DNA from: an uncultured Candidatus Poseidoniales archaeon
GTDB lineage: Archaea; Thermoplasmatota; Poseidoniia; Poseidoniales; Thalassarchaeaceae
Length of the DNA: 44,631 nt
NCBI GenBank assembly: GCA_902593945.1
Contig: CACJKA010000010.1
Coordinates: 1-44,631, forward strand
Direction of reading: 5' to 3'
Shown: piece by piece, positions 10,936 to 38,069 of the stretch
Numbering within the stretch: position 1 is the first letter of the stretch
How the letters are laid out: each line of letters opens with the position of its first letter
Notes under the pieces: generated by a model
Seen by the model: only the letters and a program-made list of their open reading frames with translations
Databases searched by the model: none
Told to the model about the DNA's origin: nothing
Program-made: the position numbers and the translations under genes

Positions 10936-10951
10936 GAATAGGTATCTAGAT

Positions 10952-14353: not shown

Positions 14354-14366
14354 ATTTATTTCCTCC

Positions 14367-14585: not shown

Positions 14586-14586
14586 T

Positions 14587-15135: not shown

Positions 15136-15152
15136 TCCTTTTTCCTCCATTA

Positions 15153-15235
15153 AACGGACTGCTCCGAGGTTTGTCGGAGGAAGGCAGAAGACCCCCCGTC
15201 CCTCATCGGCAAAGCCTCCAGAGGAGAAGTCCGTT
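15153..15235 (-). promoter_or_regulatory. GC-rich, foldable leader upstream of rpo7 (possible structured 5' UTR or small RNA)
   Basis: An 8-bp perfect inverted repeat (AACGGACT at 15153-15160, AGTCCGTT at 15228-15235) closes a GC-rich 83-nt segment in an otherwise AT-rich region. Inside are CTCCGA/TCGGAG (15162-15167 with 15174-15179, 6-nt loop) and CTCC/GGAG (15216-15219 with 15223-15226). A TATA-like box lies 26 nt upstream of 15235 on the minus strand, so the rpo7 transcript would begin almost exactly at the closing stem. It is not a tRNA (no T arm). Function is unknown. Confidence 0.5.
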
Positions 15236-15258
15236 GAGTCGCCGACTTACCTCCCCTG

Positions 15259-15264
15259 TATAAG
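15259..15264 (-). promoter_or_regulatory. Candidate TATA box of the rpo7 operon
   Basis: The minus strand reads CTTATAC, centred near 15261. The predicted start of transcription, about 26 nt downstream, is 15235, the outer base of the leader stem. Confidence 0.45.
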
Positions 15265-15391
15265 CGCAACGGATGATTAATGACTTCGGAAAATGACATT
15301 TACCTCACAGACCGTAGGTCTGGATGATAGTTTAGTGCGAATGTTCAAGTGGGTATTGAACCCCATTTAGACCCTGATGCGAGGGTTCACT

Positions 15392-18300
15392 ATGTCAAGT
15401 CAATTGAACAAAGTTACTATTTGTTTGATTATGACATCTCTTTTAGTACTAATGCCTCATTCGGGGTTCTTAACAAATTATGAAAATCATAGTGGTGAAA
15501 TTGACCATATAGTCGTTGATTCATATTCATCAAATTCTGACTCTGTTTGGGTAGACGGAGAACAACCATGGCCTCAACCGGGTAGAACATCTGGAAGAGA
15601 ATCTACCCCTCCCAATCATGGACCTGATGGAGGAGCAGGATTAGATTCTCCTGACAATGCTACAGAATTACAGTCAATAGTGGACCCAGTAATCAACTGG
15701 CAATACAGTAACTACGTTTATTCGACTGATTCATTCGCTACTCCAATTGCCGATCTATCTGAATCAATCGTATCTGACGAGGATTCTAATGAGAGGTGCG
15801 GTGGAGATTCATTATTCACCATCATCATACAGACTGAGGATGTTGGAGGTAGTCTCCATAGCTTCCTTAGAATCATAGAAGGAGAGGATGCAGATCTTGC
15901 ATGGGAAGTTGATTTGGGAGAAACTGATGAAATTAAAGCATCCCCAGTGGTTGTTGATTTAGACTATGATGGAAAACAAGAAATCATTGTTTCCTTCGAT
16001 TTAAGTGGTACATTCTATGTCAAAGGATATTCGCCTGAATTAATTTGTACAGTTACTGGTTGGTCTGCTGGAGGCAGTCATGTCACTGAATTATTGTGGA
16101 CTTACTCGGATTCAACATTAATGATTGGGAGTACTGATGGACCTTATGTAAGTAGTGCATATGGCGGGCACAAGCCGACTGCCCAACCATTACTTGCAGA
16201 CTTAGATCTAGATGGCACTGCAGAATTAGTCCTCTCATTGATTGAAAAAAACTCAGATGACCCAGTTATCTTGGCATTGGATATAACTGGGTCATCTGCA
16301 ACTTCAATATGGGAAAAAACATTAGATAAAGGGACACATCCGTCTGACCCAGCATTTTTACAAACTGATGAAAATACTGCTTTCGTGATATTAACATCTG
16401 TTCAGAGTTCTACAAGCGCCATGTGGTTATGGAAATTAGATGCGTCTGATGGCGATTCGAATTGGGATGGAAAGTCACTGGAAAATTTGAATGGATTTGA
16501 TTCGAATGTACCGCATATAAGGCTGCCTGGCCCAGTTATTGCAAACTTAGATTCTGATGATGCTATGGAAGTAGTCATTACAATACCATCTGACTTTGAT
16601 GGCAGTAGTGCAGCATATGGAGCAGAATATTATGGTATTGAGATTAGTGATGGTACAAAGATATGGGACTTTGAGTCATCTAATGGGTATGCAGATTCAG
16701 CGCCAATAGTTATCGATACAGATGAAGATGGTGACCACGACAGGGTTTGCTGGATTACATGGACTACTAACAGTTGGAATACAAATAGAGATGGTTTTGC
16801 TGGATGCCATGATGATACTGATGGAACAAATCCTCAAGAAGCATGGAGTAAAGAAATTCTAGAGCCACAAGGAGCGCCAAATGATGGTATCGCAGTTTCC
16901 TCACCTCTATGGATGAATATTGATGGCTCTGATGAACCAGAATTAATTGTACCATATGGGAGAGAATTGAGAGCCTATGATGGAGATTTAGGAACTATGG
17001 CTGGAGTTAACTCTGATTGGAGTGAACCAATTACGATTAACCATAGACTTTGGTCATCACCATCATTAGCAGATATTGATGGAGATGCAACTTTAGATTT
17101 AATTCTAGGTGATACAGTTATTTCAAATCAAATAGCCGACATAAGACCTCAATTAGATGGTAGAAGCATAGAGTTCAGCCCTGTTGCACCAGATCCTGGA
17201 GAAACAGTCACTATTACTGTATCTTTTGAAAATGCAGGCACCGCAGAGACTGATGAAGATTCAGATGTAATACTATATGCAGATAACCAGATAATAGCTC
17301 AAGAAAGGTTCGGCAATATGCAGCCTGTTGATCCTACTGGTTCGGGTTCTTTATCGACATTTAACGTAGAATGGTCAGGAAATCTTGGCGAACATGAATT
17401 CAAACTGGCCTTAGACCCTTACAGAAATATTACGCAATCTAGATACGATAACGATGTTTATATGACCACATTAAATATTGTTAACCCGTATAATGCTAGT
17501 TTCGAAATTCCAACCGAACCAACCATTGTAACACCAGGTGAAAGTTCTTTGTTTACACCTAATATTCGTTCAACTGGAAGACTGGCAGGGGTGTGGAGCC
17601 TATCCATAGATGCTACGAGCTTACCAGATGGGTGGACTTGGAGTGATGAAACTTCTGGAGGTATTGAATCTATAGAAATTGATGTAGGACAGGTTTGGTC
17701 ACCAAACCTGAGAATACATGCTCCAAGTGATGCATTGGGATCTGACTCAGGTTATTTGACACTAACATTGACATTAGATGATGATAATAATGTTTCAATC
17801 TCCGCACTTGCTGCAGTAGAGGCAAATAGGACTAGAGGGCTTTCTATTAGGGGCCCTGATGGAACTGCAAATACACATGGTTATGGTTTGACTGGGGAAT
17901 ATGCAGAAGCATGGATGCTGATTCATAACCTTGGGAACGCATTAGAAAATCAGATAATTATGTCTTGGGATACAACGACATGGGGGAATGACCTCAAATT
18001 GTATGATCTAGATGGAAATCAAATTCCGGCTCTTTCACTGGAACCTGATGAGATGATTTATGTCACTGCTAGACTAGATGTACCTAGTAATGCAAATTTG
18101 GGAGATACTGTTAGTACGCCACTTGAAATGTGCGTTAGTGAAGATATATGTCAAACAATTCAGATATCTTTTACAGCAACTGGCGTGACAACTGATGTAC
18201 ATCAGAGAACTGTCCCTGGTAGGACATTATCTTGGGATATATCAGCAGATATGCCGGTAGGAGAGAATCAACTTGAATGGTCAATGACGGACGCAGGACT

Positions 18301-21028: not shown

Positions 21029-21048
21029 CACACAATTGGAGTTTTTTT

Positions 21049-21675
21049 ATGGGCGAATATATACCACCATCTGCATTTTATACATTTGATCCGATTAGAT
21101 ATGACCCGATTTTACTTATTGAGCCGATTCTATCATCAATAGGTGGAGATCATACAGAGATTAAGAAAATAGTAGAACATTCTAATGAAATAAAAAATCT
21201 AGTTGAAGGAAAAGAATCTCCTTATGATCATTCAACTATGTTATTTCTAACTACCATAGACTGGAAAGAAGGAGGAGGAACCCCCGAACCACTAGATAAT
21301 GGGATTGCAAGAGATAGAATTGGCAGATTTCCTAGTGATAGTGGAAACGCAATAGAGTATATTCTTGAGTTTACTAGGGAGAAGGAGGAAGAATTATTAT
21401 TTCATGAATTATTGATAAAACTGACTAATGGTTTATCTCCTGAAAATCTCGGAGAAGAAGGATTCAACTTAGGATTTGCTGGCATGGAACTTTTAGGGTG
21501 GTTAAATCATGAAGAGGTTAGAATACTTTTACAAAATATGCAAAGTGGAAAATGGATTATAAAATCAAACGAAACTATAGACGGAGGAGTCAGAGATTCT
21601 CTACGTCACTTACAAACATTATTGAAAGCGGCAAATAGAAGGGGCTGTGGCATTTTAATGCGTAGGCATAATTAA
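21049..21675 (+). CDS. Uncharacterised soluble protein
   Basis: 208 residues, starting 20 bp after the giant surface protein with a TGGAG-type SD, so possibly cotranscribed with it. No signal peptide or membrane segment. The N-terminal half mentions YTFDPIRYDPILLIEPIL and an acidic helix; the C-terminal half is helical (REKEEELLFHELLIKL, EEVRILLQNM) and ends in basic NRRGCGILMRRHN. I do not recognise a family. Its stop is 1 bp from the convergent purC stop. Confidence 0.7.
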   Translation: MGEYIPPSAFYTFDPIRYDPILLIEPILSSIGGDHTEIKKIVEHSNEIKNLVEGKESPYDHSTMLFLTTIDWKEGGGTPEPLDNGIARDRIGRFPSDSGNAIEYILEFTREKEEELLFHELLIKLTNGLSPENLGEEGFNLGFAGMELLGWLNHEEVRILLQNMQSGKWIIKSNETIDGGVRDSLRHLQTLLKAANRRGCGILMRRHN

Positions 21676-21676
21676 T

Positions 21677-22606
21677 CTAGAATTGATTACCGGTTAATCT
21701 TGAATACATATCTGAGTATAATTCTGCTGTCTTGTCAATTATATCTTGAGGCAATGCAGGTATAGGAGGCTCTTCTGTACCTTCTTCTCTAGCTTTATAC
21801 AATTCATTATGATGTCCAGTAGACAAATAATGACCTCTTACAAATTCTTTGGAAAGTTGAACTATCTCTCCTTCCAGATATTTCGCAGCATCCCACCAAC
21901 GATCTTCGTCTAAAGTTCCGAAGGAGTCAACCAATACAGGAACACGATTCTTGCCCAATGCAAATTCTTTCTTCCCATCTACATGTATCAATCCTCTTTT
22001 ACTTGCTTCAGATTCAATAATTTTATCCACTTCAACGACAATTGAAAGTATTGAATCAAATTCTTGCTCTGACAGATTTGATATTTCTAAAGCTTCTTTC
22101 CTATCTAAAAGTCTATCAAATTTCTCAAACTTAGTAGATACTTCTAGATATGGCTCAGGCAATTTAATTCCTTGATGCAAAACTGTACCTGACTCAAAGC
22201 CAAATTCTTCGGCTGTAGCGTCTCCTCTCTCATATCTTCTCCATCCAGAGCCTGCAAGATAATGTCTACAAATCACCTCAAGAGGAACGAATACATTTTC
22301 CCTTTCTCTTGAAATTGCTCCGGGTTCTCTAATTACATCGAAACGACGAGCCCTTACTCGGTCAGGAGCATTCATCTCAATCACATGAGTATCACAAATA
22401 CCTGCCTTCTCAACTAATTCAAACCAATAACAAGAAGTTCTATTCAGAGATTCACCTTTCCTAGGAATTAGACTTGGTATTATTTGATCGAATACACTAA
22501 TTTGATCAGTATATCTAAATTCAATTATATCGGGGTCCTCTGTACTCCATACTTGCTTTACTTTACCATGATACAACATCTCGACCATGACTCTGTTCGA
22601 TGACAT
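21677..22606 (-). CDS. purC: Phosphoribosylaminoimidazole-succinocarboxamide synthase
   Basis: The enzyme joins CAIR and aspartate using ATP in de novo purine synthesis. 309 residues from ATG 22606; M7 (ATG 22588, MVEMLYHGKVKQVW) is an equally plausible start. The SAICAR synthetase signatures are present: YHGKVKQVW (phosphate loop), FDQIIPSLIPRKGESLNR, FVPLEVICRHYLAGSGWRRY, LIHVDGKKEFALG and LVDSFGTLDEDRWWD. The length fits the eukaryote-like/archaeal longer form with a C-terminal helical extension. It lies upstream of folD's 3' end on the same strand (44 bp gap), placing two purine/one-carbon genes together. Confidence 0.95.
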   Translation of the reverse strand: MSSNRVMVEMLYHGKVKQVWSTEDPDIIEFRYTDQISVFDQIIPSLIPRKGESLNRTSCYWFELVEKAGICDTHVIEMNAPDRVRARRFDVIREPGAISRERENVFVPLEVICRHYLAGSGWRRYERGDATAEEFGFESGTVLHQGIKLPEPYLEVSTKFEKFDRLLDRKEALEISNLSEQEFDSILSIVVEVDKIIESEASKRGLIHVDGKKEFALGKNRVPVLVDSFGTLDEDRWWDAAKYLEGEIVQLSKEFVRGHYLSTGHHNELYKAREEGTEEPPIPALPQDIIDKTAELYSDMYSRLTGNQF

Positions 22607-24247: not shown

Positions 24248-25741
24248 ATGACACTCGGCAATAATGAGAAAAAAATGCTTCGTTGTATGCGTTCTAAACA
24301 AAAGCATGTTTGGACTCTTGAGGAGTTATTAGAAATCACACATTGGAAGGATCAAGTTCACGTTGCAGGTGCAGGTAAATCTCTAGATGAAAATGGATTT
24401 GTAGAAACAATTGAGAAACACATGAAATTTGTCACATTAGGTTCTGAAGGACTTAAGGCTAGTGAAAATGGTTTACTCGAGAAAAGAATTTGGGATTGGA
24501 TTATTTCACAAACAGAGGAAAAAAGAACAATGAACGAATTATTCAATGCAGGTTTTGAAAGACATGAAGCGGGTCCTGGAATAGGCCTATTGAAATCAAT
24601 AGGTATATCTATTGAAAAAGGAATTTTTACTTTTGATAATGAGGAAGATATTACGGAGATAATTTCTGAACGTGCTAACTTTATTGGGGAAATATCTGAA
24701 GAAAAAAAGGATTTTAATAATTTAGAGAAGGAATTAGTTGAACATTTCTCTGGAAGAAAGAATTTGATTAATATCGAAGAATACATCGTAAGAGAATGGA
24801 AACTTACCGTAAAAGGAATAGAGGTTCCAGATAAAGAATTGGAGGAAGTTGAACTTGTTGGAGAAATTACACCAGAATTTTTACAAAAAGAAGGATGGGA
24901 AAATGCATCTTACAAGGAATTTGATGTTAATGCAGACACCCCTATACCAGTTGGAGGAAGGCCTCATCCGATGCAATCACTAATTGAAAGAATAAGATCG
25001 GTTTTCCTAGAGATGGGTTTTTCGGAAATAGAAGGTAACTATGTCCAATCAGCAGGTTGGAATATGGATGCTCTGTTTATCCCTCAATCGCACCCAGCAA
25101 GAACTATGCAAGACACATTTTATCTAGATGAGCCAGAGAAAATAGATATTCCAGATGAAATGTTAGATCTATGGGCATCAGTTCATGAAAACGGGCATGA
25201 TACTGGTAGTTTGGGTTGGGGTTCAGAATTTGATAAAGAAGAAGCAAAGAAAGGACTGCTGAGGACTCATACAACTGTAAACACTGTGAAATATATCGCA
25301 GAAAACCCAGTAAACCCTTCACGCGTATTTGGGATTGGAAGAGTCTTTAGACAAGAAACAATAGATAGAACACACCTGCCCGAGTTTCATCAAATAGAGG
25401 GAATAATTCACGAACCAAATGCAAGCCTACCTATGTTAATCTCAACATTGAAGACTTTCTATTCAAAAATGGGTTACCCTGATGTTAGAGTTAGACCAGC
25501 ATATTTCCCATACACAGAACCGAGTGTGGAAGTAGAGGTTTACTGGAGAGGAAAGTGGTTGGAACTCGGAGGAGCTGGTATCTTCCGCCCGGAAGTAACA
25601 GAGCCACTGGGTAGTGAATGGCCAGTATGCGCATGGGGAATGGGGCTAGAGAGACTAGCTATGCTAGTTCTGGAGTTAGACGATATCCGTGAACTTTACC
25701 AACCAGACTTGGAACGCTTGAGTCGGATGCCAATCCTCTAA
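24248..25741 (+). CDS. pheS: Phenylalanyl-tRNA synthetase alpha subunit
   Basis: Class II aminoacyl-tRNA synthetase, 497 residues, the usual length of archaeal PheS. A strong SD (AGGAGGGAG) precedes ATG 24248. An N-terminal tandem winged-helix region (MRSKQKHVWTLEELLEITHW onward) is followed by the catalytic core. This has motif 1 (HPMQSLIERIRSVFLEMGF), motif 2 (RVFGIGRVFRQETIDRTHLPEFHQIEG) and motif 3 (GMGLERLAML). WLELGGAGIFRPEV contains the Phe-site loop. No pheT is adjacent within the window, so alpha and beta subunits are encoded apart. The last 83 bp overlap the convergent YHYH-protein gene. Confidence 0.96.
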   Translation: MTLGNNEKKMLRCMRSKQKHVWTLEELLEITHWKDQVHVAGAGKSLDENGFVETIEKHMKFVTLGSEGLKASENGLLEKRIWDWIISQTEEKRTMNELFNAGFERHEAGPGIGLLKSIGISIEKGIFTFDNEEDITEIISERANFIGEISEEKKDFNNLEKELVEHFSGRKNLINIEEYIVREWKLTVKGIEVPDKELEEVELVGEITPEFLQKEGWENASYKEFDVNADTPIPVGGRPHPMQSLIERIRSVFLEMGFSEIEGNYVQSAGWNMDALFIPQSHPARTMQDTFYLDEPEKIDIPDEMLDLWASVHENGHDTGSLGWGSEFDKEEAKKGLLRTHTTVNTVKYIAENPVNPSRVFGIGRVFRQETIDRTHLPEFHQIEGIIHEPNASLPMLISTLKTFYSKMGYPDVRVRPAYFPYTEPSVEVEVYWRGKWLELGGAGIFRPEVTEPLGSEWPVCAWGMGLERLAMLVLELDDIRELYQPDLERLSRMPIL

Positions 25742-27785
25742 GAGAATATCTACTGACTGTAGCAAGCATCAACAATGAAATCAAAATCAGTCCACTATTA
25801 GGAGGATTCTTTAGCCAAGGTATGGCAATTAATCCACCTTCAGATGACTGTCCTCCCGGTGGCCCTCCGCCACCACATCCATCAGGAGGAGGGCCTATTC
25901 CAGGACCCCAAGTATCTCCATGCCCGGCACAAGGATCGTCATCATCATCGCCACTTTCATCAGATGAGGGAAGTTCTCCTGCGTAACAATTTATGAAGTA
26001 GGGGAAACCAATTCCTCCTTCTCCATTAACCATAGTAGTATGGTAATGATACATACCCTCTGGCCAATCAGGAGTTGCGCTAAATATTCCATTACAAGCA
26101 TCTAATGTCCCGAGACCTTGAACATAGTCATAGTCATCTATTCCTCCGGACCCATCAGCTCCTTCTTTGAGTCTATATGAGGAGGTCATTTCAACTACCT
26201 CTCCATCATCATTCCAGCCAGTATATCCGTATATTGAATATCCATCTAATGCAAATCCTACTATCTTTGAATGTGTACTCAAGGTTCTTTGAGATTCTAA
26301 ATTGTAGTCATACATTGTTTCTCCTTCTTCAGCATGCCAATGTATGCAATTAGAATCTGCATGATAATGGTAAATTCCTCCAGGCCCTGAGTGACCATGG
26401 CAAACACCAAGATCGACTGGTTGTTCACCTTCTTCTTGCTCATAAGCGCCTTCTTCTAGAGCCACTGCATCTCCTCCAGGGCCATCTTCGGGACCATAAA
26501 TTGCCACGCCGGTTACAGAAAAGGCAATTGTGCCCCTAATTGGTGCCATAACACAGCCATCAGAAGAAACTGAGGGATTACATTCGGGATCATCAGTTGG
26601 AGTTAATGGTATTGTGTAGGTATCAGATTGTGCACTCGCACAACAGCCTAAAGTTGATTCAAAGTCATGATTAGGTAGGCCGTTTGTACTAATTGTAATA
26701 TTGCCATCTTCAATTATAAAACTCAAGTCACACATATGGTTTTCTTGCTCATCGGTAGTATAATCATCAACAACAGGTACTTGTTCCTCATCACAAAGTA
26801 AGACTCTCGACCACCACCCAGAACTACCAGTTTCTGGATCTGAATCATCATACTCACAACTACCATCATCTTGTGTAGCGTTACTATCATAATTCATAGC
26901 TTGAGGATCCATACAACCCATTACTGGTTCTTCATCATATTCACAACTGCCATCATCTTCAGTAGCAGCAGAATTGTAATTATTTGCTTCTGAGTCTGTA
27001 CAACCACTTACCGGCGCCTGGTCATATTCGCAACTGCCATCATCATTTGTAGCATTAATATTGTAATTATTTGCTTCTGAGTCTGTACAACCCATTATAG
27101 GTTCACTAACTGTAATAACAATTGTCTCTAAATCTGAGGAATCTTCCCATGTCCCACATTCTCCTATAATAGAGATAGAGATATTAGACTCAATCTCAGA
27201 AGGCCCCCAAGAAAAATCACCATCTTCGGAAAATGGCAGATTTAGACTAAACTGACTAGCATCGCCATCTGACCAACCTAAATCGCAAGTACCAATATTA
27301 GGGTGAATTAATGTCCCATTTATTGAAACTATATCTCCGCGAATAATACTAATTTCATTATCATCTACGATAATAATTGTAGGATCTTCATATGGATAAT
27401 GGACTAAAAATGTAGATGAGAGCCTTGATTCTTGCCCCAAAGAATCAGTTATAATTATCTTCAAAGAATGGGAGCCGACTCCCACATCTGAAATATCGAT
27501 ACTAATTATTCCAGTATTATTCGGTGCAAGAAGCAACGATGAACCATCTAATGTGGCCTCAATGTCTAATGAAGACATGTCTTCATCACTAATAGATATG
27601 TGAAGAAATTCTACACTACCAATCAAGATACTATCTGGGACATCGGATTCAATTATGGGAGCAAGATTAATTCCCTCAGATTCAAAATCATAAAAAAGTC
27701 CACCAACTAATACACTACCGATCATTAATCCAGCCAAGAAAAGAGACCTGGCGGCGCCATCGTTGTCATCTTTTGAATTACGCAT
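25659..27785 (-). CDS. Exported YHYH-domain protein with CTD-type calcium-binding-like repeats
   Basis: 708 residues from ATG 27785; a longer frame begins at a TTG. An N-terminal hydrophobic helix (about residues 13-31) acts as signal or anchor. Residues about 230-320 carry three GCTDSEANNYN-x-DDGSCEYD repeats, a motif common in large marine exported proteins. The C-terminal half is a YHYH domain: GGIYHYHADSNCIHWHAE, then GFALDGYSIYGYTGW, then GMYHYHTT, with Cys residues for disulfides. Repeated His-Tyr-His pairs suggest metal binding, but the domain's function is not established. A C-terminal helix near 660-685 may anchor it. Last gene of the SCO/LVIVD cluster; its end overlaps pheS by 83 bp. 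Confidence 0.85.
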   Translation of the reverse strand: MRNSKDDNDGAARSLFLAGLMIGSVLVGGLFYDFESEGINLAPIIESDVPDSILIGSVEFLHISISDEDMSSLDIEATLDGSSLLLAPNNTGIISIDISDVGVGSHSLKIIITDSLGQESRLSSTFLVHYPYEDPTIIIVDDNEISIIRGDIVSINGTLIHPNIGTCDLGWSDGDASQFSLNLPFSEDGDFSWGPSEIESNISISIIGECGTWEDSSDLETIVITVSEPIMGCTDSEANNYNINATNDDGSCEYDQAPVSGCTDSEANNYNSAATEDDGSCEYDEEPVMGCMDPQAMNYDSNATQDDGSCEYDDSDPETGSSGWWSRVLLCDEEQVPVVDDYTTDEQENHMCDLSFIIEDGNITISTNGLPNHDFESTLGCCASAQSDTYTIPLTPTDDPECNPSVSSDGCVMAPIRGTIAFSVTGVAIYGPEDGPGGDAVALEEGAYEQEEGEQPVDLGVCHGHSGPGGIYHYHADSNCIHWHAEEGETMYDYNLESQRTLSTHSKIVGFALDGYSIYGYTGWNDDGEVVEMTSSYRLKEGADGSGGIDDYDYVQGLGTLDACNGIFSATPDWPEGMYHYHTTMVNGEGGIGFPYFINCYAGELPSSDESGDDDDDPCAGHGDTWGPGIGPPPDGCGGGGPPGGQSSEGGLIAIPWLKNPPNSGLILISLLMLATVSRYSLRGLASDSSVPSLVGKVHGYRLTPELA
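26849..27095 (-). repeat. Three tandem GCTD...DDGSCEYD coding repeats
   Basis: The minus-strand translation shows three copies of about 28 residues: GCTDSEANNYNINATNDDGS, GCTDSEANNYNSAATEDDGS and GCMDPQAMNYDSNATQDDGS, each followed by CEYD. Each copy has two cysteines and an acidic loop. The first two copies are almost identical, consistent with recent duplication. Confidence 0.9.
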
Positions 27786-27863
27786 AACATAATGTGTAAT
27801 GCAATTGCTATTAAACAATATCAGCAAAAAGTTTCGAAAAGGCGTAAAAGATTGTTTTCTTGA

Positions 27864-28988
27864 TTACTCGGTGGATAATGCCTTGATATCAAGTAAGAAT
27901 TCTTGTACGTCCCAATTAATGCCTGTCCATGCAACTCTTTTTCTTGTCTGTTTGTCAAGAATAAATGTCACAGTTGAGTGACCTACTCCATATTCACCTA
28001 GAGATTGGTCGTGAGGATCAACTGTTTCTGAGGAATTTGTATCACTGGTTCCAATTAGTACACAGCCAAGCCAATTACCATCAGGCCTCTCATATCCTTC
28101 ATCACACATACAATGAGCACTTGCACCTGAACCCATAATCCATCCCTTTCCATTACAGTCAACTCCAGGTGAAAGGTGTGAAAGGTTGGAATGACTGGAA
28201 ACCCATGCTAAATGTGTATTGATATCAACATCAATAGAAGAAATATTCTGAGATTCTGAGAGAGACCATGTTTCATTCAAATTATCCCAATAATGCAGCA
28301 ACCAAGAGAAGTTCAGGTTATTGTTGGTAGACCATTCTCCAATATCCCCTTCATTATCAGTTAGATTGTAAGTAATATTTGCATTACTGAATACATAATT
28401 CGCGAAATCATTACCGTCATTGTAACACCTATTATTGGATATCTCACCACGGCAAGGAGTATCTATGACTGTGGAGGTATTATCAGGATAAAGAACTGAA
28501 AATCTATTCGTAGATTCTTCAGGAGGCTGGCTAGCTTCAATATGCTCATTATCAACTACAATATTCCAACTATTCCAGACATTAACTAAAGTAGATGGTC
28601 TTTCTGCTGAAAGATGATCCCACTCATATCCATTTGCCTCTGTCCACTGAGCAAATCTATCCACAGTATCTCGAGCAGGATCGATAGTGATTGACAATAT
28701 TACAACATCATCTGAATATTCGCCAAGATTTTGATGTATCCAAGCTAGATTAGCAGAAATGGCAAGACAAACATCAGGGCATGAAGTATAAATGAAGGCA
28801 ACAACTACTACCTTGTCAGAATAATCTGAAAGTGTAACTGATTCTCCGTCCTGATTCAATAATGTGAAATCAGGGGCATCTGGTGGATTTTTATATTCTG
28901 TACCATACAAATCCAATCCATTATTTGACTGTAAGCAACCAGAAAAAAATAAACATAATGCGACTAAAAGAACTAGTGTTTTTTTCAT
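27864..28988 (-). CDS. SCO1/SenC-like lipoprotein with large Cys-rich insertion
   Basis: 374 residues. Start ATG 28988 follows a GGTGA motif; a GTG lies at 29003. The lipobox FFSGC puts the lipidated Cys at position 18. The thioredoxin-fold SCO core carries the copper/redox pair C70-x3-C74 (TSCPDVC), ILSITIDPARDT and the conserved His337 in GVGHSTVTFILD. SCO proteins usually deliver copper to the CuA site of cytochrome oxidase. Between about residues 150 and 325 there is an insertion of roughly 175 residues. It has six or more cysteines, including an EGF-like stretch (CMCDEGY...GC). The typical family length is near 200 residues. It is downstream of a second SCO gene (11 bp gap) in the same operon. 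Confidence 0.9.
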   Translation of the reverse strand: MKKTLVLLVALCLFFSGCLQSNNGLDLYGTEYKNPPDAPDFTLLNQDGESVTLSDYSDKVVVVAFIYTSCPDVCLAISANLAWIHQNLGEYSDDVVILSITIDPARDTVDRFAQWTEANGYEWDHLSAERPSTLVNVWNSWNIVVDNEHIEASQPPEESTNRFSVLYPDNTSTVIDTPCRGEISNNRCYNDGNDFANYVFSNANITYNLTDNEGDIGEWSTNNNLNFSWLLHYWDNLNETWSLSESQNISSIDVDINTHLAWVSSHSNLSHLSPGVDCNGKGWIMGSGASAHCMCDEGYERPDGNWLGCVLIGTSDTNSSETVDPHDQSLGEYGVGHSTVTFILDKQTRKRVAWTGINWDVQEFLLDIKALSTE

Positions 28989-28999
28989 GGAATCACCAT

Positions 29000-29719
29000 T
29001 CACTCATCTAATAATAACTTAATATCCTCAAGAACAAGTTCTGCATTCCAAGCCGTATCGGCCCACCAAACTCTCTGATTCATCTCCTTATCGACGATTA
29101 TGGTACCAGTTGTATGATCAACCCAATAGCTAAGTGGATGATGCATAGTTTGTACCTGACTAGATTCTTTCTGGGATTCACTACAACCTTCGTTGTCAAC
29201 AGAAACATTAGCTGGTGTATCTGCACATGTATCAAATCCATCTGCTACTCCGTCACCATCTAAGTCTGAGTCATAAGTTGCTAGGCCTACCTCAAAATTC
29301 CTCCAAACAGGTTCTATAACTTCTAATTCACCAGTTAGGTGAGGCCAATCTAATCCTCTAGCATTAGAATAATTATTCAAAACTGATGAATTATCGGTCC
29401 ATGGATCCACCGTCACAGTTAGTATCTGGACCTCTGTACGGTAAAGGTCGCCTAGTAATTGAGCAACATAAGCGAGGTTGGCACTAACTACTGGACAGAC
29501 ATCTGGGCATCTAGTGAAAAGGAATGCCACTACAACTACATCTCCTTCATAATCATAGAAATTAAATTCATTGCCTTCTTCATCTGTTAATGTGAAATCT
29601 TCTGCTGGCATTGAAGGAGAAATATCTTCTCCATAGAAAATATCTACTTCTTCGTTACCTATACAACCAGAAGTGACAAAACATAGAGCCATTAAAATTG
29701 CAAACAAATTTTTCGACAT
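29000..29719 (-). CDS. SCO1/SenC-like lipoprotein with thrombospondin-3-like insertion
   Basis: 239 residues from ATG 29719. Lipobox VTSGC, lipidated Cys19. The SCO copper/redox pair is C71-x3-C75 (TRCPDVC), with VTVDPWTD and the conserved His202 in YWVDHTTGTIIVD. An insertion at about residues 149-182 reads like a thrombospondin type 3 unit (SDLDGDGVADGFDTC, then a second Cys), so it probably binds calcium. It sits at the same position in the fold as the much larger insertion of the neighbouring SCO protein. It is second in the pair; the upstream gene ends 8 bp before it. Confidence 0.9.
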   Translation of the reverse strand: MSKNLFAILMALCFVTSGCIGNEEVDIFYGEDISPSMPAEDFTLTDEEGNEFNFYDYEGDVVVVAFLFTRCPDVCPVVSANLAYVAQLLGDLYRTEVQILTVTVDPWTDNSSVLNNYSNARGLDWPHLTGELEVIEPVWRNFEVGLATYDSDLDGDGVADGFDTCADTPANVSVDNEGCSESQKESSQVQTMHHPLSYWVDHTTGTIIVDKEMNQRVWWADTAWNAELVLEDIKLLLDE

Positions 29720-29727
29720 TGTAACCA

Positions 29728-30279
29728 CTACTCCTCTTCATCTCCAGTAGGCCGACCCTTTTTTACAGTTCGACTGATTGCTACCGCAGCAAAAAGAACT
29801 AGCCCTATCCAAAGGAAAATCATATTTGATTCTGAAGTGTTCAAATCTTCGTTACCGCTATTTCCACTGGGCAATACGAAATTGGGGGTTGTTTCATTGT
29901 GAGTATCTAGAATAATTGTGATATTAACGGTATGCCAAAGTGAACCATTAGAATATACTAATACTTGATAATTACCGGCGGACCAGTTGAGAGGGTCTAA
30001 CCATAATTGGCATTCATCCTCATTCCCTGTACTATTGTACGGTTGAGCAGTACAAGTCCAATTATGAGTCGAATTTTTTGGATTCTCCATCTCAATTGTT
30101 CTTTCTAAGTCCATGACTACATTGTTGAAAATTATACTATCATTTTGTGTTACTTGAGCATCGTCAGGTTGGATTGACCCATTTCTCATGATGAATTGGA
30201 ATGTATTAGCACCGTGTGCATCAACTACTGGATTGATGAATAAAATAATGACGAAAACTACAATTGAAACATTTTTCAT
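29728..30279 (-). CDS. Small exported membrane-anchored protein with predicted N-terminal His (paralogue of 34087-34728)
   Basis: 183 residues from ATG 30279, chosen for a GGTGA motif upstream. A signal peptide ends in VVDA, leaving a mature N-terminus HGAN. The domain that follows (FIMRNGSIQPDDAQVTQNDS, then IIFNNVV, then GNYQVLVYSNGSLWHTVNIT) is beta-rich and resembles a cupredoxin/CopC-like sandwich, but the usual cupredoxin ligand set is not clear. A C-terminal helix at about 150-170 anchors it. It is homologous in order and motifs to the protein at 34087-34728. An N-terminal His can form a copper histidine brace; that role here is an inference. It lies between the LVIVD gene (18 bp) and the SCO gene (8 bp), so it is in the operon. 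Confidence 0.75.
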   Translation of the reverse strand: MKNVSIVVFVIILFINPVVDAHGANTFQFIMRNGSIQPDDAQVTQNDSIIFNNVVMDLERTIEMENPKNSTHNWTCTAQPYNSTGNEDECQLWLDPLNWSAGNYQVLVYSNGSLWHTVNITIILDTHNETTPNFVLPSGNSGNEDLNTSESNMIFLWIGLVLFAAVAISRTVKKGRPTGDEEE

Positions 30280-30297
30280 CGAACTCACCTAATCAAT

Positions 30298-32253
30298 TCA
30301 TTCAGAATCCCATAGTGGTGGATAATCAAATCTTGAATCATAGTCTTCATCAAATTGAACAACATAAACTCCTGTGACCATATCAGAAACGAATACAAAC
30401 CCTCTAGGGTCATATTGTAATCCCCAATTAAATGGAATCATACAAGATGCCCAGCAATCCGCCATATCATACCCCATTTCTTCGGCTGGATTATCAATCC
30501 AAGGTGGACCAGCAGGAAGATAATAGCCAATGGTCTTAGTTTCGGCTAACTCTGAAATTGCTTGGAATCCTCTATCGGGCTCTGGAACTCCATTTTCCCA
30601 TACTATTTCATCCCAAATATCACCATGATCAGTTACCCAAGCACCAGCGTGATAGTGAGTGTAGTACACATGACCAGAGGGGCCAGTATCGCCATTATGT
30701 GGGCTGAAAATATATCCGCCAGGTATCCAATGTTGTGGGTGTGAACCATTTCCTTTCATTCCCTCTCCAGGAAGCTTCCATTTTGAAACTAAGAAAGGTT
30801 CAGCAGGATCAGTAGTGTCAATTGTCCACACATAACCTGTATGATTCTCATTGGAACCATATTCAGGAGCGATGTAGGTATAGTGTCTCCAGTTTACTCC
30901 ATAAACTGGGTCTTCAAATCCAGTTCCACAATTAGATGGCCACTCCTCTACGGGGTCAAACACACTAATTCCTGAGCAAATTAAGTAATCATTTGGAACT
31001 GCATAATGTATGTTGTCATTTCCTTGATTAGAATCTAGCCATTCATCAGCATCCATATTTGCATGACCACCACCTTCTGGGCCATACCATCCATCATCTG
31101 CGGACGGACAACCCATCCAACGACCAACTTCTGGGGGCCAATTAACTCCCAAAGGATCAGCAACTTGAGGAGGTGTACTAACATCTACTAATCTCAAACC
31201 TGCGCCCCAATAAGAAACTGCGAGTAATCTTTGTTGAGTAATAGGGTGTACAAAGTAAACATTGTCATGATTAAAGATTGAACCACCACATGTAGTATAA
31301 GGCTCAGGAGTGTAACCTCCCCAACGAATAATTTCGCGACTAGTATTTTCTTGTTCTTCATTCTGATTAGGAAGCCATGAATCTAAACCTCTAGGGACAT
31401 AGAATACTTGAGTTCCTTTGTAGAATGTACCACTACTACCTTCGACCATTTCTGGATAAGGATCTGCCCCGAAGAGGAATAAATGACAATCTGCTTCATC
31501 CCAAGCATTAGTTGGATCTAAAGCAGGATCCCAATCGCAATAAATCGCTAAGTCCTGATTATGGAAACCTGCAGGAGGATTATTCCATTCTGCAACCTTT
31601 ACTGGACTGGTTTTATCTCCAACATAAATCACATCCATTCGATTTGCCCCACTATTAGCATCATCATCATTTGGAATTGGATCAAGTTCACTATTTGTTA
31701 GTTCATGATTAACTAATACCCAGTTATTATCTTTGGTAACTTTGATATCAATCATTCTAGCTATTTCAGCATAGTAAGTAGAAAGCATTTTGATGTTATT
31801 AGGATCGCTAATGTCAAGAATCTCAAATTGGTTGTAACTTGAAACATAAGCGTAACATCCGCCAGTACCGTCAGCATATATTTCACAATCTTCCATGAAA
31901 TTGCCTTCAATTGTTATTTCAGAGTTATCTCCAGGTGTTGGACCTACATTCTTGTATTCATCAGAGCAAGGTCTTCCTGCAACATTATCTAAGTCGGCAG
32001 GAGGTTTTTCGTTCCCATCGCAATTAAGGTTATGATAATCAATTAGTTTAGCATTAGCGGTAGATAATCTATGAGCTAGTAGATCATTATGTGAATGATT
32101 TTCATCTTCAATTTCTATAACTGGATCTATCCATTCCATGTCAGCGTCGTCCTCAGAGGAATCATCACCAAGCATAGACATACACCCAGATAAGGGAGTA
32201 ATTAGCATTAGAAAAACCATTAGAAACATTGGAAAATTAGAAATCCGTGACAT
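30298..32253 (-). CDS. LVIVD-repeat lipoprotein, large His-rich propeller
   Basis: 651 residues. The lipobox LSGC gives lipidated Cys24. The LVIVD/beta-propeller blades show as FEILDISDPNNIKML, LRLVDVSTPPQVADP and WTIDTTDPAEPFLVSKW. His-rich segments include NHSHNDLLAHR near the N-terminus and HPQHWIPGGYIFSPHN, YYTHYHAGAWVTDHG and LPAG in the C-terminal third. There are several Cys pairs. The function of the family is not established. It is a close paralogue of the adjacent 580-residue protein (shared PGG...FSPHN.D, YHAG.WV.D, TIGY.LP.G and TG.Y.VQ.D), so the pair arose by tandem duplication. The gap between them is 69 bp. Confidence 0.85.
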   Translation of the reverse strand: MSRISNFPMFLMVFLMLITPLSGCMSMLGDDSSEDDADMEWIDPVIEIEDENHSHNDLLAHRLSTANAKLIDYHNLNCDGNEKPPADLDNVAGRPCSDEYKNVGPTPGDNSEITIEGNFMEDCEIYADGTGGCYAYVSSYNQFEILDISDPNNIKMLSTYYAEIARMIDIKVTKDNNWVLVNHELTNSELDPIPNDDDANSGANRMDVIYVGDKTSPVKVAEWNNPPAGFHNQDLAIYCDWDPALDPTNAWDEADCHLFLFGADPYPEMVEGSSGTFYKGTQVFYVPRGLDSWLPNQNEEQENTSREIIRWGGYTPEPYTTCGGSIFNHDNVYFVHPITQQRLLAVSYWGAGLRLVDVSTPPQVADPLGVNWPPEVGRWMGCPSADDGWYGPEGGGHANMDADEWLDSNQGNDNIHYAVPNDYLICSGISVFDPVEEWPSNCGTGFEDPVYGVNWRHYTYIAPEYGSNENHTGYVWTIDTTDPAEPFLVSKWKLPGEGMKGNGSHPQHWIPGGYIFSPHNGDTGPSGHVYYTHYHAGAWVTDHGDIWDEIVWENGVPEPDRGFQAISELAETKTIGYYLPAGPPWIDNPAEEMGYDMADCWASCMIPFNWGLQYDPRGFVFVSDMVTGVYVVQFDEDYDSRFDYPPLWDSE

Positions 32254-32322
32254 CGCAAAACCTCGTACTAATTATTTCACAATAACTTCTACTTGTGAAT
32301 GCTGCGGTTGTAATGTTAGAAA

Positions 32323-34065
32323 TTAACCAACGTGATATGGTTTGTCTATATCTAATTGAACGATATATAATCCTGTGGTAATACATGAAAGATATACGTA
32401 ACCATTATGGTACTCAGCGGCCCAAATAAAGGGTGTCCAGCCAAAATCATAGTACGAGCTTGAGAGAGGGGTTCCATCTTGTCCATGAGGCAGATGATAT
32501 CCAATAGTTGATACAGAGTGTACTTCAGTTCTATTCAGATTTGGATTCTTAGCTTCTAACATTAAAGTCTCAATATCAACAACCCATAACCCTGCATGAT
32601 AACTAGAGAGATATATTCTACCATCCCAATTACCACCGAGACTCTGATCAGGTAAACCTAATGCAGAATTAGTTTCAAAAATCTGCGCATCTGAGTTATG
32701 AGGACTGAAAAGTAACCATTCTTCCCCTCCAGGAATATGATGTTCTTCGGCGAAAGGAATTTCCCAACTATGGATGATTTTTGGCTTGAATGTTACCTGA
32801 CCATTCAACGTTTCATATTCAGTTGTATCAATCAAATAACCCAAACCAGTCCCCACTGTTGTCTCCAACACTTCAGTTGCAAGGAATGTCAGATGCATTT
32901 TGCCTGCTGGATAACCTAGATGAGAGGCGTCAACCATTTCATCCATTGGCTCAGCATAATGAATGTATGAGGCTCTGCCGCCATTTTCATTCCCTGTACA
33001 GCCACAATCAATTTGTCCATCCTCATCAAGATCCGCGAACTCCATCCATTGTCCAACTTCTGGAGCTCGCCAATTACATGTCAACTGAGTGCCTAATGTA
33101 GCCGCACAGCCACCGGCAATGAATGCGTATTCAATTGGTGAATTTTGAGGATGTGGTACATCGCTAACATCAAAAATTCTTAGCCCTGCTTCCCAATATG
33201 CTCCATAGATGTATGTCCTACCATACCTAGGATCTTGTTGGTCTTCACCAGGCCATGTTTGAACTGTCATATCATGTATGTAAATCCATCCGCCAAGAGT
33301 ATTCTGCCAGTTAACTTCAGCTTCACCAACCTTCAAAATACGAGGGCTATCACTTGGCCCATCGAAATTGAGATGTGCTATTGTAATTCCTCCACACGCA
33401 TCACCTTGACCAATGTCACACTGTTCGTAATCTGGATTAGCAACAAAAATATACCATTCATTATCGATCATATGGGTGTACAAGTTATGTGGCCCACTAG
33501 GGTGATCAGCATCATACCATGCATCAACATAAGTTGGATTGTATTTATCTGAAACATCAATTAGAGTAACTGTGACTTGAGCAGGATCGCCCCATTCACC
33601 AACGTTAGGATCAGCATTACCTGGGTCCACTAACTGATTCTGTACAATAACATATTCATCTCCATTATATTGTAGATATTTCACATCTAAAACTTGAGTA
33701 TTTGGATCTACATACACGCCAGTAACCGTTGTATTCTCTGGATTTGTAACATCTACAATATGCATCTCGGACCAACCTGCAATATAGGCATAAGTGCCAC
33801 CATCAGGAGATTCAGCAACCTGAACTTCAGCATTTCCAGGTGCAGTCAATTGATTAAATGAAACAGGCTGAATATTATCAGTATACATGATGTGCTGACT
33901 AGCATTCCTATGGTCATGCCCGTCATCTTGCATAAGTGGATCCATGATTGAAGAGTTACTATTTACTGATTCAGAAGCCTCGTCTGAAAGAAAAATTGCA
34001 GCGATACTAGCCGTAAACAAAAAGAAGATTAGGACTCCTGCTAAAGCAACTCTACGGTTATCCAT
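32323..34065 (-). CDS. LVIVD-repeat protein with N-terminal membrane anchor
   Basis: 580 residues from ATG 34065 (the frame extends to a TTG at 34080). MDNRRVALAGVLIFFLF begins an uncleaved-looking anchor helix instead of a lipobox. Blades: MHIVDVTNPENTTVTGV, VTLIDVSDKYNPTYVDAW, LRIFDVSDVPHPQ and LWVVDIE. His-rich patches occur at DGHDHRNASQHIMY and EEHHIPGGEEWLLFSPHNSD, then SSYHAGLWV. Tandem paralogue of the lipoprotein downstream. Its start codon is 21 bp from the divergent start at 34087, so the two promoters must overlap the opposite coding region or share the gap. Confidence 0.85.
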   Translation of the reverse strand: MDNRRVALAGVLIFFLFTASIAAIFLSDEASESVNSNSSIMDPLMQDDGHDHRNASQHIMYTDNIQPVSFNQLTAPGNAEVQVAESPDGGTYAYIAGWSEMHIVDVTNPENTTVTGVYVDPNTQVLDVKYLQYNGDEYVIVQNQLVDPGNADPNVGEWGDPAQVTVTLIDVSDKYNPTYVDAWYDADHPSGPHNLYTHMIDNEWYIFVANPDYEQCDIGQGDACGGITIAHLNFDGPSDSPRILKVGEAEVNWQNTLGGWIYIHDMTVQTWPGEDQQDPRYGRTYIYGAYWEAGLRIFDVSDVPHPQNSPIEYAFIAGGCAATLGTQLTCNWRAPEVGQWMEFADLDEDGQIDCGCTGNENGGRASYIHYAEPMDEMVDASHLGYPAGKMHLTFLATEVLETTVGTGLGYLIDTTEYETLNGQVTFKPKIIHSWEIPFAEEHHIPGGEEWLLFSPHNSDAQIFETNSALGLPDQSLGGNWDGRIYLSSYHAGLWVVDIETLMLEAKNPNLNRTEVHSVSTIGYHLPHGQDGTPLSSSYYDFGWTPFIWAAEYHNGYVYLSCITTGLYIVQLDIDKPYHVG

Positions 34066-34086
34066 ATAGGCCGGAAGCAACCAGTC

Positions 34087-34728
34087 ATGTTGAAGTCATC
34101 GGAGTGCATGGGATGGACTGTGAGATACCATCGGGCAGTTGTAGTGGGGATATTTTTTGTTCTTCTATTGCCATCAATTACTCATGCTCATGACCAAAAA
34201 GAGTATAATATTCTAATCACTGAAAATGGTTTGCAGCCCCCCTCATTAAATCCTGGGATATTGGTTGAAACTGATACTTTATTTTTCAGGAATGTAGACG
34301 ATAGAGAGAATGTGACTCATAAAATTTTAGTTGATGCAGATCAAGACGGTTTATTTCAAGGAATAGATGATTTTGAAACAAGTTGGATATCAAGTTCTTG
34401 CGAACTTAATGAAACGGGTGAAAAGGTGAACCCTGAATGTGAACAGCAGGCTCTGATTCTATTGGCCCCGTCCAATAGACTATTTCCTGGAAACATTTCA
34501 ATGATTCATCAAATGAAAGAAAATAATGAAACAATAGAAATTAATTTCTATGTCAATTTCGCACCAGATATTCACGAAGTAGATGAAAATCTACCAACGG
34601 GAAATACAGATGGGGAATTACTTGTTGAGAAAAGTAGTAAAGAACAGACTTTAGAACTCATAATATTCATTTCTGTTCTTGGTATATTTTTAGTAGGGAT
34701 TGAATTAATTAAATCAGATGATGAGTAG
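34087..34728 (+). CDS. Small exported membrane-anchored protein with predicted N-terminal His (paralogue of 29728-30279)
   Basis: 213 residues from ATG 34087; ATG 34108 is an alternative that keeps the signal peptide. The signal ends LLPSITHA, leaving a mature N-terminus HDQK, comparable with CopC-type proteins. The domain mirrors the 29728-30279 protein: ENGLQPPSLNPGI, TDTLFFRNVDDRENVTHKI, two cysteines (SSCELN, PEC), PGNISMIHQM, then a NFYVN strand. A C-terminal helix of about 18 residues (LIIFISVLGIFLVGIELI) anchors it. The His, Cys, His and Met order in VTHKI, Cys and MIHQM resembles a blue-copper ligand set, but this is only suggestive. Divergent from the LVIVD/SCO operon. Confidence 0.7.
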   Translation: MLKSSECMGWTVRYHRAVVVGIFFVLLLPSITHAHDQKEYNILITENGLQPPSLNPGILVETDTLFFRNVDDRENVTHKILVDADQDGLFQGIDDFETSWISSSCELNETGEKVNPECEQQALILLAPSNRLFPGNISMIHQMKENNETIEINFYVNFAPDIHEVDENLPTGNTDGELLVEKSSKEQTLELIIFISVLGIFLVGIELIKSDDE

Positions 34729-36001: not shown

Positions 36002-37162
36002 TTATTTATCACATAATCGGGAAATTAATTCTGACTTACGTCCAGATTCTTTTAACCCATGTAATACACATAATTCTTTGAGATCAGAGACCAAAAATTT
36101 GTTCAATACATCTTCATCAGGAATTGGAGAATTCGACATGTAGATTCTGATATTTAGGAGTAATTGCTTGGCTATTGCTTTAGCCATTAAGCAAGGGACA
36201 GCATTTCCTACCTGAGTATATTTATCTCTTTTACTTCCAGCGAATTTATATTTTTTAGGAAAGGTTTGAATCAAGGCACATTCATCTTCTGTTAACATTC
36301 TGACTTCAGTTTCCGAATAATAAACTAAAGCATCAGCACCATCTTTCCAATATCTTGCAGAAAGAGTATAGCATGGCTTATCAGGTTTAATCAACTGCCA
36401 ACCAAAACCTTTTCCATTCTTCTTGTTTCTTTCCTTTCTTCTCCTAAATCCATCAATCATTTTTTGTGTATGGAAATAATTGGCTGGAACTTCTTCTTTA
36501 GGCATTAATACAGTACCTGCCCCTAACCACTCTTTTACCGGTTCAATTCCAACATCTAATTTAGATTGACCTTTGGAATTTACATTTTCCCCATGAGTTT
36601 TTTTAGGATAAACTATTGGAAAGTTTTTATCATCTTTTGAGCCAATAAAAATCACTCTACGTCTTTTTTGTGGGACACCATAGTCAGCTGCAATTAGTTT
36701 CTCCCACCGCACATTATATCCTATTTTCTTAAATTCCTCTTTAATTATCTCAATAACTGCAAGCCCCTTTTCATTTTTCATAGTTAAGATACCAGGGACA
36801 TTTTCCATCACAAAGTAGTCTGGTTTAACTCCGTCAACCATTCTTATAAAATCCATGAATAATGAATTTCTAGGATCTTTGTTATCTCTCCTTCCAGCAC
36901 CGCTAAAACCTTGACAAGGAGGACCTCCACAGATTACAGAGACTTTTCTATCTCCTATTATGTCCTTCACTTGGTCAACAGAAACCTTTCTTATATCTCC
37001 GCAAATTGTTTCGGCTGTTTTATGATTATTAGCAAACGTCTCTGCATAAGTATCAATATGTTCGACGCCAAGAATTACTTCAAAACCCGCCATTTCGAAG
37101 CCTGTACTCATACCTCCAGCACCACAGAATAAATCTATGACTAAGGGTTTAGATGAGGCCAT
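36002..37162 (-). CDS. DNA (cytosine-5) methyltransferase with C-terminal SAP domain
   Basis: 386 residues. All main C5-methyltransferase motifs are present: I (DLFCGAGGMSTGFEMAGF), IV with catalytic Cys83 (GGPPCQGFSGAG), VI (ENVPG, residues 120-124), VIII (QKRRRVIFIGS) and X (YTQVGNAVP). The target-recognition region lies between VIII and the LSARYW segment. The last 35 residues (about 352-386: LVSDLKELCVLHGLKESGRK and on) read as a SAP DNA-binding domain, an unusual addition. It pairs with the nuclease gene 85 bp upstream as a type II restriction-modification system. By eye the gene is AT-rich, suggesting transfer. Confidence 0.92.
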   Translation of the reverse strand: MASSKPLVIDLFCGAGGMSTGFEMAGFEVILGVEHIDTYAETFANNHKTAETICGDIRKVSVDQVKDIIGDRKVSVICGGPPCQGFSGAGRRDNKDPRNSLFMDFIRMVDGVKPDYFVMENVPGILTMKNEKGLAVIEIIKEEFKKIGYNVRWEKLIAADYGVPQKRRRVIFIGSKDDKNFPIVYPKKTHGENVNSKGQSKLDVGIEPVKEWLGAGTVLMPKEEVPANYFHTQKMIDGFRRRKERNKKNGKGFGWQLIKPDKPCYTLSARYWKDGADALVYYSETEVRMLTEDECALIQTFPKKYKFAGSKRDKYTQVGNAVPCLMAKAIAKQLLLNIRIYMSNSPIPDEDVLNKFLVSDLKELCVLHGLKESGRKSELISRLCDK

Positions 37163-37247
37163 GTGCTATCTCTGAAATCCGTAGTTCTAAGTATTATCCA
37201 TCTCAAATTACTACAAAACAGAAGGAGAATTAGAGTTAATATAATGA

Positions 37248-38069
37248 TTAATCACCGGATAATTTCTCCCAGAATTTATTTGAAGCTCTCCAATTAGAAT
37301 ATGGACGATTGTTGGGTTTGTGAGGATCGTAGTACATACCACTGTCAAGGTATATTTCGCCAGTTTTTACATATTCAATCCATTCTATGAAAGTCAAAGG
37401 GGGGCCAATTATCATCTCAGTAAATACTTTTTTAGATTGAACAAATTTCACCCAACCATTTTGGCCAAATTTTCGATTAACACGTGGTTCTAGTGTGCTT
37501 CGATACCATTTAGCAAGTATAACATCATCATGTTGTAGACTACTGGGGATGATTTCTGATTTATTTTCTCTGCTATCTTTGGAATAATTATAGTAAATGG
37601 TTACATCTAAATTTGATTCTACAGTCATCTTCTGCCCATAATCATTGTATTGATGGACATTAGGAAATACTCTTCCAGACCAAGAATACCTATCTGGTCT
37701 ATCGGCTCTAGATTTTGTACCAAATATTTGTAAAAAAACATCGCGATTAGTGACATCGGGGTTATCAGTCTGCCAAAGATAATAATCAGCCGACCAATCT
37801 CCAAATGTTGTTTTTGATCTACCGGTTTTTAGTTCAAAACCTTGCCAATCTGCTGAATCATCTCGATTAGCACTAACGCCAAATTGTGATTCAAGCCAAT
37901 GTCCAATGCTCCCATCATGTTTTAATTCAGGAAGAATCTTTCCTTTAATACGTTCATTGAATATTTTTTCTAATTTTTCGAAAGATTGGCTATCGGTTTC
38001 TGAGTCCAAAACATCTCTTCTAATCATCTTAGAAATGAAATCATAAAAACTACGGAACGTTGCTAACAT
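37248..38069 (-). CDS. MvaI/BcnI-like type II restriction endonuclease
   Basis: 273 residues. The motif GHWLESQFGVSANRDDSADW followed by GFELKTG matches MvaI/BcnI-type monomeric nucleases, with a likely active site of Asp74, Glu79-x-Lys81 (and Glu60 upstream). Family members cut CCWGG or CCSGG. The specificity here cannot be read from sequence; a C5-methyltransferase partner would suit a CCNGG-like site. It is encoded upstream of the methyltransferase on the same strand, so the nuclease would be transcribed first. Confidence 0.8.
   Translation of the reverse strand: MLATFRSFYDFISKMIRRDVLDSETDSQSFEKLEKIFNERIKGKILPELKHDGSIGHWLESQFGVSANRDDSADWQGFELKTGRSKTTFGDWSADYYLWQTDNPDVTNRDVFLQIFGTKSRADRPDRYSWSGRVFPNVHQYNDYGQKMTVESNLDVTIYYNYSKDSRENKSEIIPSSLQHDDVILAKWYRSTLEPRVNRKFGQNGWVKFVQSKKVFTEMIIGPPLTFIEWIEYVKTGEIYLDSGMYYDPHKPNNRPYSNWRASNKFWEKLSGD

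Follow-up and report, generated by a model that had tools for sequence, protein, structure and literature searches.

Gene content and layout of the cluster

The Poseidoniales, which are uncultured, belong to the most abundant archaea in the surface ocean. The window analyzed here is a 44,631-nucleotide stretch of DNA, contig C10 of a 1.2-Mb genome (65% complete) from the family Thalassarchaeaceae. A first-pass annotation had described seven adjacent genes for exported proteins at 25659-34728, and an ORF check of the window found all seven at the same positions and on the same strands. They are listed here with the residues of interest:

25659..27827, minus strand: YHYH-domain protein, PF14240 (Pfam E 1.5e-29)
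27864..29003, minus strand: SCOa, SCO1/SenC lipoprotein (Pfam E 4e-22)
29000..29728, minus strand: SCOb, SCO1/SenC lipoprotein (Pfam E 1.5e-24)
29728..30288, minus strand: smA, small exported N-terminal-His protein (A|H in 61/61 non-redundant orthologues by alignment)
30214..30216, minus strand: codon for smA His25, the predicted N-terminal residue after signal cleavage
30298..32253, minus strand: LVa, LVIVD beta-propeller lipoprotein (Pfam; AF2)
32071..32097, minus strand: LVa N-terminal HSHNDLLAH motif (H53, H55, H61)
32323..34080, minus strand: LVb, LVIVD beta-propeller with an N-terminal TM anchor (Pfam; hhalign to LVa)
33892..33918, minus strand: LVb N-terminal HDHRNASQH motif (H55, H57, H63)
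34087..34728, plus strand: smB, small exported homologue of smA (orthologue alignment; hhalign; AF2)
34189..34191, plus strand: codon for smB His35, the predicted N-terminal residue after signal cleavage

The ORFs are closely packed, with overlaps of 4 bp between SCOa and SCOb and of 1 bp between SCOb and smA, and a 9-bp gap between smA and LVa. The annotated picture of tight spacing on one strand, with a divergent seventh gene 21 bp away, holds provided that LVb uses an internal ATG at 34065, its likely start, and not the listed TTG; the 21 bp then separate this codon from the smB ATG at 34087. The YHYH ORF also opens with TTG, and the ATG at 27785 is its likely start.

Pfam agrees with the family names that had been assigned to YHYH, to both SCO1-SenC proteins and to both LVIVD proteins. 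The YHYH domain scores 103.8 bits (cut-off 25), and the two LVIVD matches (E 3.6e-5 and 6.2e-7) reach 23.4 and 29.1 bits, above the curated cut-off of 20.2. No published description of the cluster was found for LVIVD, YHYH or SCO in Poseidoniales within the part of the literature that was covered.

The YHYH protein is exported and combines Cys-rich D-D-G-S-C repeats, conserved His clusters and a C-terminal hydrophobic segment. It is the least constant member, missing from many otherwise complete clusters, and is an accessory one. The YHYH domain of jumbo phages (PF14240) has been predicted to be a Zn-dependent hydrolase (PMC7824862); the cluster protein shares the domain and the conserved His clusters, but is a cellular surface protein. 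In two LVIVD-negative Poseidoniaceae genomes (G242, G257), a SCOb-class gene comes after that for a 973-aa YHYH protein, which indicates that YHYH proteins are also SCO neighbors in their own right. At L191:5928-9488 and L192:8157-11703, the 973-aa protein joins TSP3 repeats, an FSH1 serine-hydrolase domain and a YHYH domain and has its own SCO; L191 is otherwise syntenic with positions 8222-21677 of the window.

The LVIVD propellers and their small partners

To our knowledge, the LVIVD family (PF08309) has no established function. LVa orthologues are 69–97% identical across genera, and 39 of 41 match LVIVD at E 0.01. Profile alignment of LVa with LVb by hhalign (99.9%, E 1.2e-33) marks the two as ancient paralogues. 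LVa has a lipobox (LSGC), 12 invariant Cys residues and an invariant N-terminal HxHx5H motif. This motif and six propeller His residues (H231, H329, H416, H457, H519 and H535 in LVa numbering) are common to LVa, LVb and nearly all distant LVIVD homologues in Thermoplasmatota, and the LVIVD proteins also conserve a Glu (E464/E403; E464 in LVa). The LVIVD proteins of the cluster thus resemble other family members in scoring above the cut-off and in sharing HxHx5H and most propeller His residues with the distant Thermoplasmatota proteins; they differ in their link to a SCO class and to an N-terminal-His partner. One distant Thermoplasmatota LVIVD protein (L159:5584-9615) adjoins a heavy-metal P-type ATPase with YHS and HMBD domains.

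PDB profile searches with LVa and LVb gave nothing usable. In an AF2 model of LVa, which is of low confidence (pLDDT 62, pTM 0.72), all six propeller His residues lie no more than 2 residues from a predicted strand start. Strand starts are the usual site of channel-facing residues in propellers, and from the model we infer that these His residues face the propeller hub. The top fold match of this low-confidence model is the Sphingobium TCM1 phosphotriesterase 5hrm (E 3.2e-8, TM 0.39–0.47), a metal-dependent propeller with a central metal centre. The likeness is one of propeller fold, at 12% identity and with no sequence match. Since the His sets are conserved, a metal role is plausible, and for the LVIVD proteins the metal would most likely be copper.

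The small proteins are likewise related to each other. Of 125 non-redundant orthologues, 124 have an A, G or S before the His at the expected signal-cleavage site, with A|H there in all 61 for smA and in 63 of 64 for smB, so that the mature proteins are predicted to start with His (H25 in smA, H35 in smB). Besides this residue, smA has an invariant C-C pair, an invariant D-x-H (H106) and a C-terminal TM helix. In smB, the D-x-H163 (mature H129, conserved in at least 90%) and H78 (mature H44) are kept, together with one C-C pair and a C-terminal TM helix. The two proteins align by hhalign (98.9%, E 3.6e-17) with His1 and D-x-H in register, and by this measure are ancient paralogues.

Neither small protein matches a Pfam or NCBIfam family, and PDB profile searches with both gave nothing usable. 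The AF2 model of smB (pLDDT 90) is a beta-sandwich with a C-terminal helix. A fold search with it returned no close known fold; the best TM is about 0.5, and the matches, all at TM <0.55, include phage baseplate sandwiches, the EfeO cupredoxin domain, laccases and auracyanin. All that can be stated from such weak matches is that the modeled smB is a beta-sandwich, perhaps a cupredoxin-like one. Histidine-brace copper proteins include LPMO and CopC-like proteins (PMC10952591). The likeness of smA and smB to these lies in a predicted mature N-terminal His, a second conserved His and a beta-sandwich; the differences are the lack of any family match and the best TM of about 0.5 for the smB fold.

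Conservation of the cluster and its two SCO classes

The order smB (−), LVb (+), LVa (+), smA (+), SCOb (+), SCOa (+), YHYH (+), pheS (−) recurs across genera in nearly all Thalassarchaeaceae loci examined, and this conservation is far beyond chance. Among 80 loci from named GTDB species, a SCO gene lies within 5.5 kb of LVb in all 63 that could be judged and near LVa in 71 of 76; 58 of 76 have smA downstream of LVa in the same orientation, and about two thirds have a YHYH gene. At the level of the order, LVa matches occur in 209 of 319 genomes, although weak matches there may be LVb. LVa is also detected in the sister order of the class; no LVa matches were found in plasmid records.

In Poseidoniaceae, the parts are split into two units. 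In one, a small N-terminal-His gene is divergent from LVa, often with no adjoining SCO (L134, L136, L137, L140, L144, L151). In the other, a small N-terminal-His gene is divergent from LVb, which is followed by a SCO gene (L143, L146-L148, L150, L169, L170); a SCO is near LVb in five of the five LV-positive high-quality genomes of this family. In the sister order, LVb and SCO share a locus with one small gene (L155, L157). Thus, contrary to a scattered distribution, genes for LVIVD, small N-terminal-His and SCO proteins stay together across two families and a sister order.

Co-occurrence was scored in 30 genomes chosen by presence or absence of an LVIVD match and by completeness, with presence determined by profile search in incomplete MAGs and ORFs called mechanically. 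LVb is found in 18 of the 30, and the small-protein family in exactly the same 18, a perfect coincidence with a chance probability of about 1e-8 on the assumption of independent genomes. This assumption does not hold, but two genera (g15 and g20) each mix LVIVD-positive and LVIVD-negative genomes. COX2 and a long cox-type SCO are still present in LVIVD-negative genomes.

Several loci depart from the common pattern. At L064, a genome that is 93% complete (G030) has YHYH, SCOa, SCOb and smA with no LVIVD gene at the locus or elsewhere, reflecting either loss or an assembly fault. In some Poseidoniaceae (L134, L136, L140), LVa lacks both a SCO and a small protein and adjoins M28/M20-type and M50-type peptidases. 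Beyond LVb, SCO and the small gene, the sister-order locus encodes a redoxin-like protein and three exported proteins that match no Pfam family (L155:385-5351, L157:708-5608). In addition, a MAG titled Pedosphaera sp. ARS72 holds a typical Poseidoniales cluster (L129) and is either mislabelled or a mixed bin.

SCOa and SCOb are the only SCO genes of the genome. Both products match SCO structures in the PDB (Thermus Sco 2k6v, human SCO1 and others) and resemble SCO1/SenC proteins (PF02630) in their CxxxC motif and distal His. SCOa has a long C-terminal extension, with C75 and C79 invariant and H342 conserved at 97%. SCOb has an intact CxxxC (C74, C78) and VDHT motif, and its H205, conserved at 100%, aligns to the VDHT His of 2k6v. 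The SCOb class is distinct from the cox-linked SCO of these archaea. In an ML tree, the SCOa proteins of the cluster are monophyletic (UFBoot 100) and join the cox-linked SCO of genus g9 (UFBoot 92); SCOa, all cox-linked SCOs and a sister-order (f3) SCO form a larger group (UFBoot 95). The SCOb-class proteins group with LVIVD-linked and YHYH-linked SCOs (UFBoot 93 and 95). In this tree, the LVb-linked SCO of the sister order is placed on the cox side, so the SCO classes map imperfectly onto their neighbors.

The gene pairs of the first-pass annotation therefore fare differently: the LVIVD and small proteins are indeed paired paralogues, whereas the two SCOs belong to distinct classes. A three-gene duplication that included SCO was rejected, as the tree shows the SCOs to be old, distinct classes.

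A cytochrome oxidase was sought elsewhere in the genome, as had been recommended, and COX1-2-3 genes with an intact CuA motif (CxxxCxxxHxxM) were found on contig C5, with no SCO beside them. A SCO is located about 4.5 kb from COX2 in genus g9 and in Poseidoniaceae, and in none of the lineages examined are LVIVD units close to cox. Most simply, SCOa is the oxidase-type SCO relocated into the cluster, and SCOb represents the LVIVD/YHYH-linked class, the module's own SCO. Because SCOa falls in the oxidase-linked clade and the distant oxidase has no SCO, SCOa probably serves the oxidase; SCOb, LVIVD and the small proteins are probably a separate module. The absence of an oxidase from the window had been read as making a role outside oxidase assembly possible; this is supported for SCOb, LVIVD and the small proteins but probably does not apply to SCOa.

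Other short SCO genes also occur without LVIVD neighbors. L193:5434-9287, from a genome without LVIVD (G175), has two in tandem with a ferritin-like gene nearby, and two further examples are found at L189 and L195; these suggest other SCO clients.

Possible functions of the cluster

The suggestion of an extracytoplasmic copper or redox module agrees in outline with the co-conservation, the His sets and the copper ligands of SCOb, again with the exception of the oxidase-linked SCOa. The reading we favor, tentatively and just short of calling it probable, is that the cluster encodes a SCO-supplied pair of cell-surface, multi-His copper propeller enzymes with histidine-brace-like partners, an oxidase chaperone (SCOa) and an accessory YHYH protein. 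The data themselves establish the gene families, their conservation, co-occurrence and paralogy, the SCO classes and the conserved residues, whereas the copper, the catalysis and the partner roles are what we infer for the cluster. LVa and LVb would be membrane-anchored propellers in which metal is bound by the hub His residues and an N-terminal HxHx5H arm, acting as oxidoreductases on an extracellular substrate. SCOb would load or reduce their copper site. As membrane-anchored beta-sandwiches, smA and smB would hold copper in a histidine-brace-like manner through the mature N-terminal His, and each would work beside its own propeller, either donating copper or acting as a redox partner. SCOa would serve as CuA chaperone to the cytochrome oxidase, whose genes lie elsewhere, and its move into the locus in most Thalassarchaeaceae is proposed to have occurred because both systems share an extracytoplasmic copper supply. 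YHYH would bind metal at the surface as an accessory protein, one that has a SCO of its own in other lineages. In favor of this reading are the conserved gene order, the SCO near LVb, the grouping of the SCO classes, the copper ligands of SCOb, the conserved His residues of the propellers, the high identity of LVa, the metal-dependent propeller as its top fold match, the predicted N-terminal His of the small proteins and the methanethiol oxidase precedent described below, as well as the finding that the small family and LVb share 18 of 30 genomes while COX2 and cox-type SCO persist without them.

A bolder version, possible but rather doubtful, is that LVa and LVb are the first members of a new class of multi-His copper beta-propeller oxidoreductases at the cell surface, each with a dedicated histidine-brace membrane protein and its own SCO class, and possibly acting on small sulfur or organic compounds. 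The nearest precedent is the copper-dependent methanethiol oxidase MtoX/SBP56, a propeller whose gene adjoins SCO1/SenC in an operon that also includes MauG (PMC5739008). The cluster, too, has an extracytoplasmic, His-conserving propeller beside a SCO1/SenC gene. However, methanethiol oxidase has an adjacent His89-His90 pair and the LVa/LVb propeller no adjacent invariant HH, none of the seven genes encodes a MauG-type protein, and the N-terminal-His membrane partner is peculiar to the cluster. Identity of LVIVD with SBP56 was rejected, since PF05694 matches neither LVa nor LVb, nothing in the window and none of 194 Thermoplasmatota genomes. By analogy, the cluster most likely works like methanethiol oxidase without belonging to that family. 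Pfam and NCBIfam matches to the propeller or CuA domain of NosZ (nitrous oxide reductase) are likewise absent from the cluster.

Several observations weigh against a copper oxidoreductase. The hub arrangement depends on the low-confidence LVa model, whose best fold match is a hydrolase and not an oxidase; LVa in Poseidoniaceae often has no adjoining SCO; and the position of the LVb-linked SCO of the sister order on the cox side blurs the link to a SCO class. Moreover, SCO proteins may also act as thiol-disulfide reductases, the SCO relative ResA being a thiol-disulfide oxidoreductase, and the propellers carry many invariant Cys residues. One alternative is a pair of metal-dependent hydrolases, with LVa and LVb resembling the TCM1 phosphotriesterase in a binuclear Mn/Zn-type site and the SCOs serving as thiol-disulfide helpers in the folding of disulfide-rich proteins. 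Such a scheme, which would suit the 5hrm match (E 3.2e-8), the 12 invariant Cys of LVa, the conserved Glu (E464/E403) and weak matches of the SCOs to ResA models, is unlikely: TM-scores are <0.5 on a low-confidence model, SCOb retains a copper-ligand His that a pure thiol reductase would not need, and the small partners bear a histidine-brace-like pair.

The remaining alternatives turn on the oxidase and on gene order. The propellers and small proteins may instead catch scarce marine copper and pass it via SCOb and SCOa to the oxidase, with no catalysis. The oxidase needs CuA and has the intact motif, its only SCO sits in the cluster in most Thalassarchaeaceae, and every product is anchored at the surface and has many conserved His residues. 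Copper acquisition or buffering is nevertheless somewhat unlikely, given that relatives lacking LVIVD and small proteins still have COX2 and a cox-linked SCO, that in Poseidoniaceae the LVIVD units lie at a distance from cox and go with another SCO class, and that 69–97% identity over about 650 residues is more enzyme-like than sponge-like. The same relatives count against an oxidase-biogenesis operon, in which the LVIVD, small and YHYH proteins would be assembly or structural factors of the oxidase. In its favor, oxidase assembly is the classic role of SCO proteins, SCOa is an oxidase-type SCO and no SCO lies at the oxidase locus of this genome; still, LVIVD units are distant from cox in all lineages examined, and the oxidase-type SCO is about 4.5 kb from COX2 in several lineages, making this option improbable. 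Oxidase assembly as the sole role was rejected, as COX genes persist without the LVIVD and small proteins. Finally, these could be unrelated surface-protein genes held together by slow change of gene order near pheS, which with other flanking genes is also syntenic within Thalassarchaeaceae. This is very improbable indeed: the pheS neighborhood is gone in Poseidoniaceae, yet the small-LVIVD and LVb-SCO pairs are kept, and presence and absence are perfectly correlated across genera that gain or lose these genes.

If the favored reading of a conserved and highly constrained surface metal module is true, the module would account for a substantial part of the uncharted chemistry of Poseidoniales and of their copper demand. 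The cluster also suggests a testable role for LVIVD proteins, a family with no assigned function, delineates an uncharacterised family of N-terminal-His membrane proteins and would illustrate SCO proteins serving clients beyond cytochrome oxidase.

Adjoining the cluster in the window, at 36002-38069 on the minus strand, is a restriction-modification system that consists of a C5 cytosine methylase with a SAP domain and an LlaMI-type restriction endonuclease.
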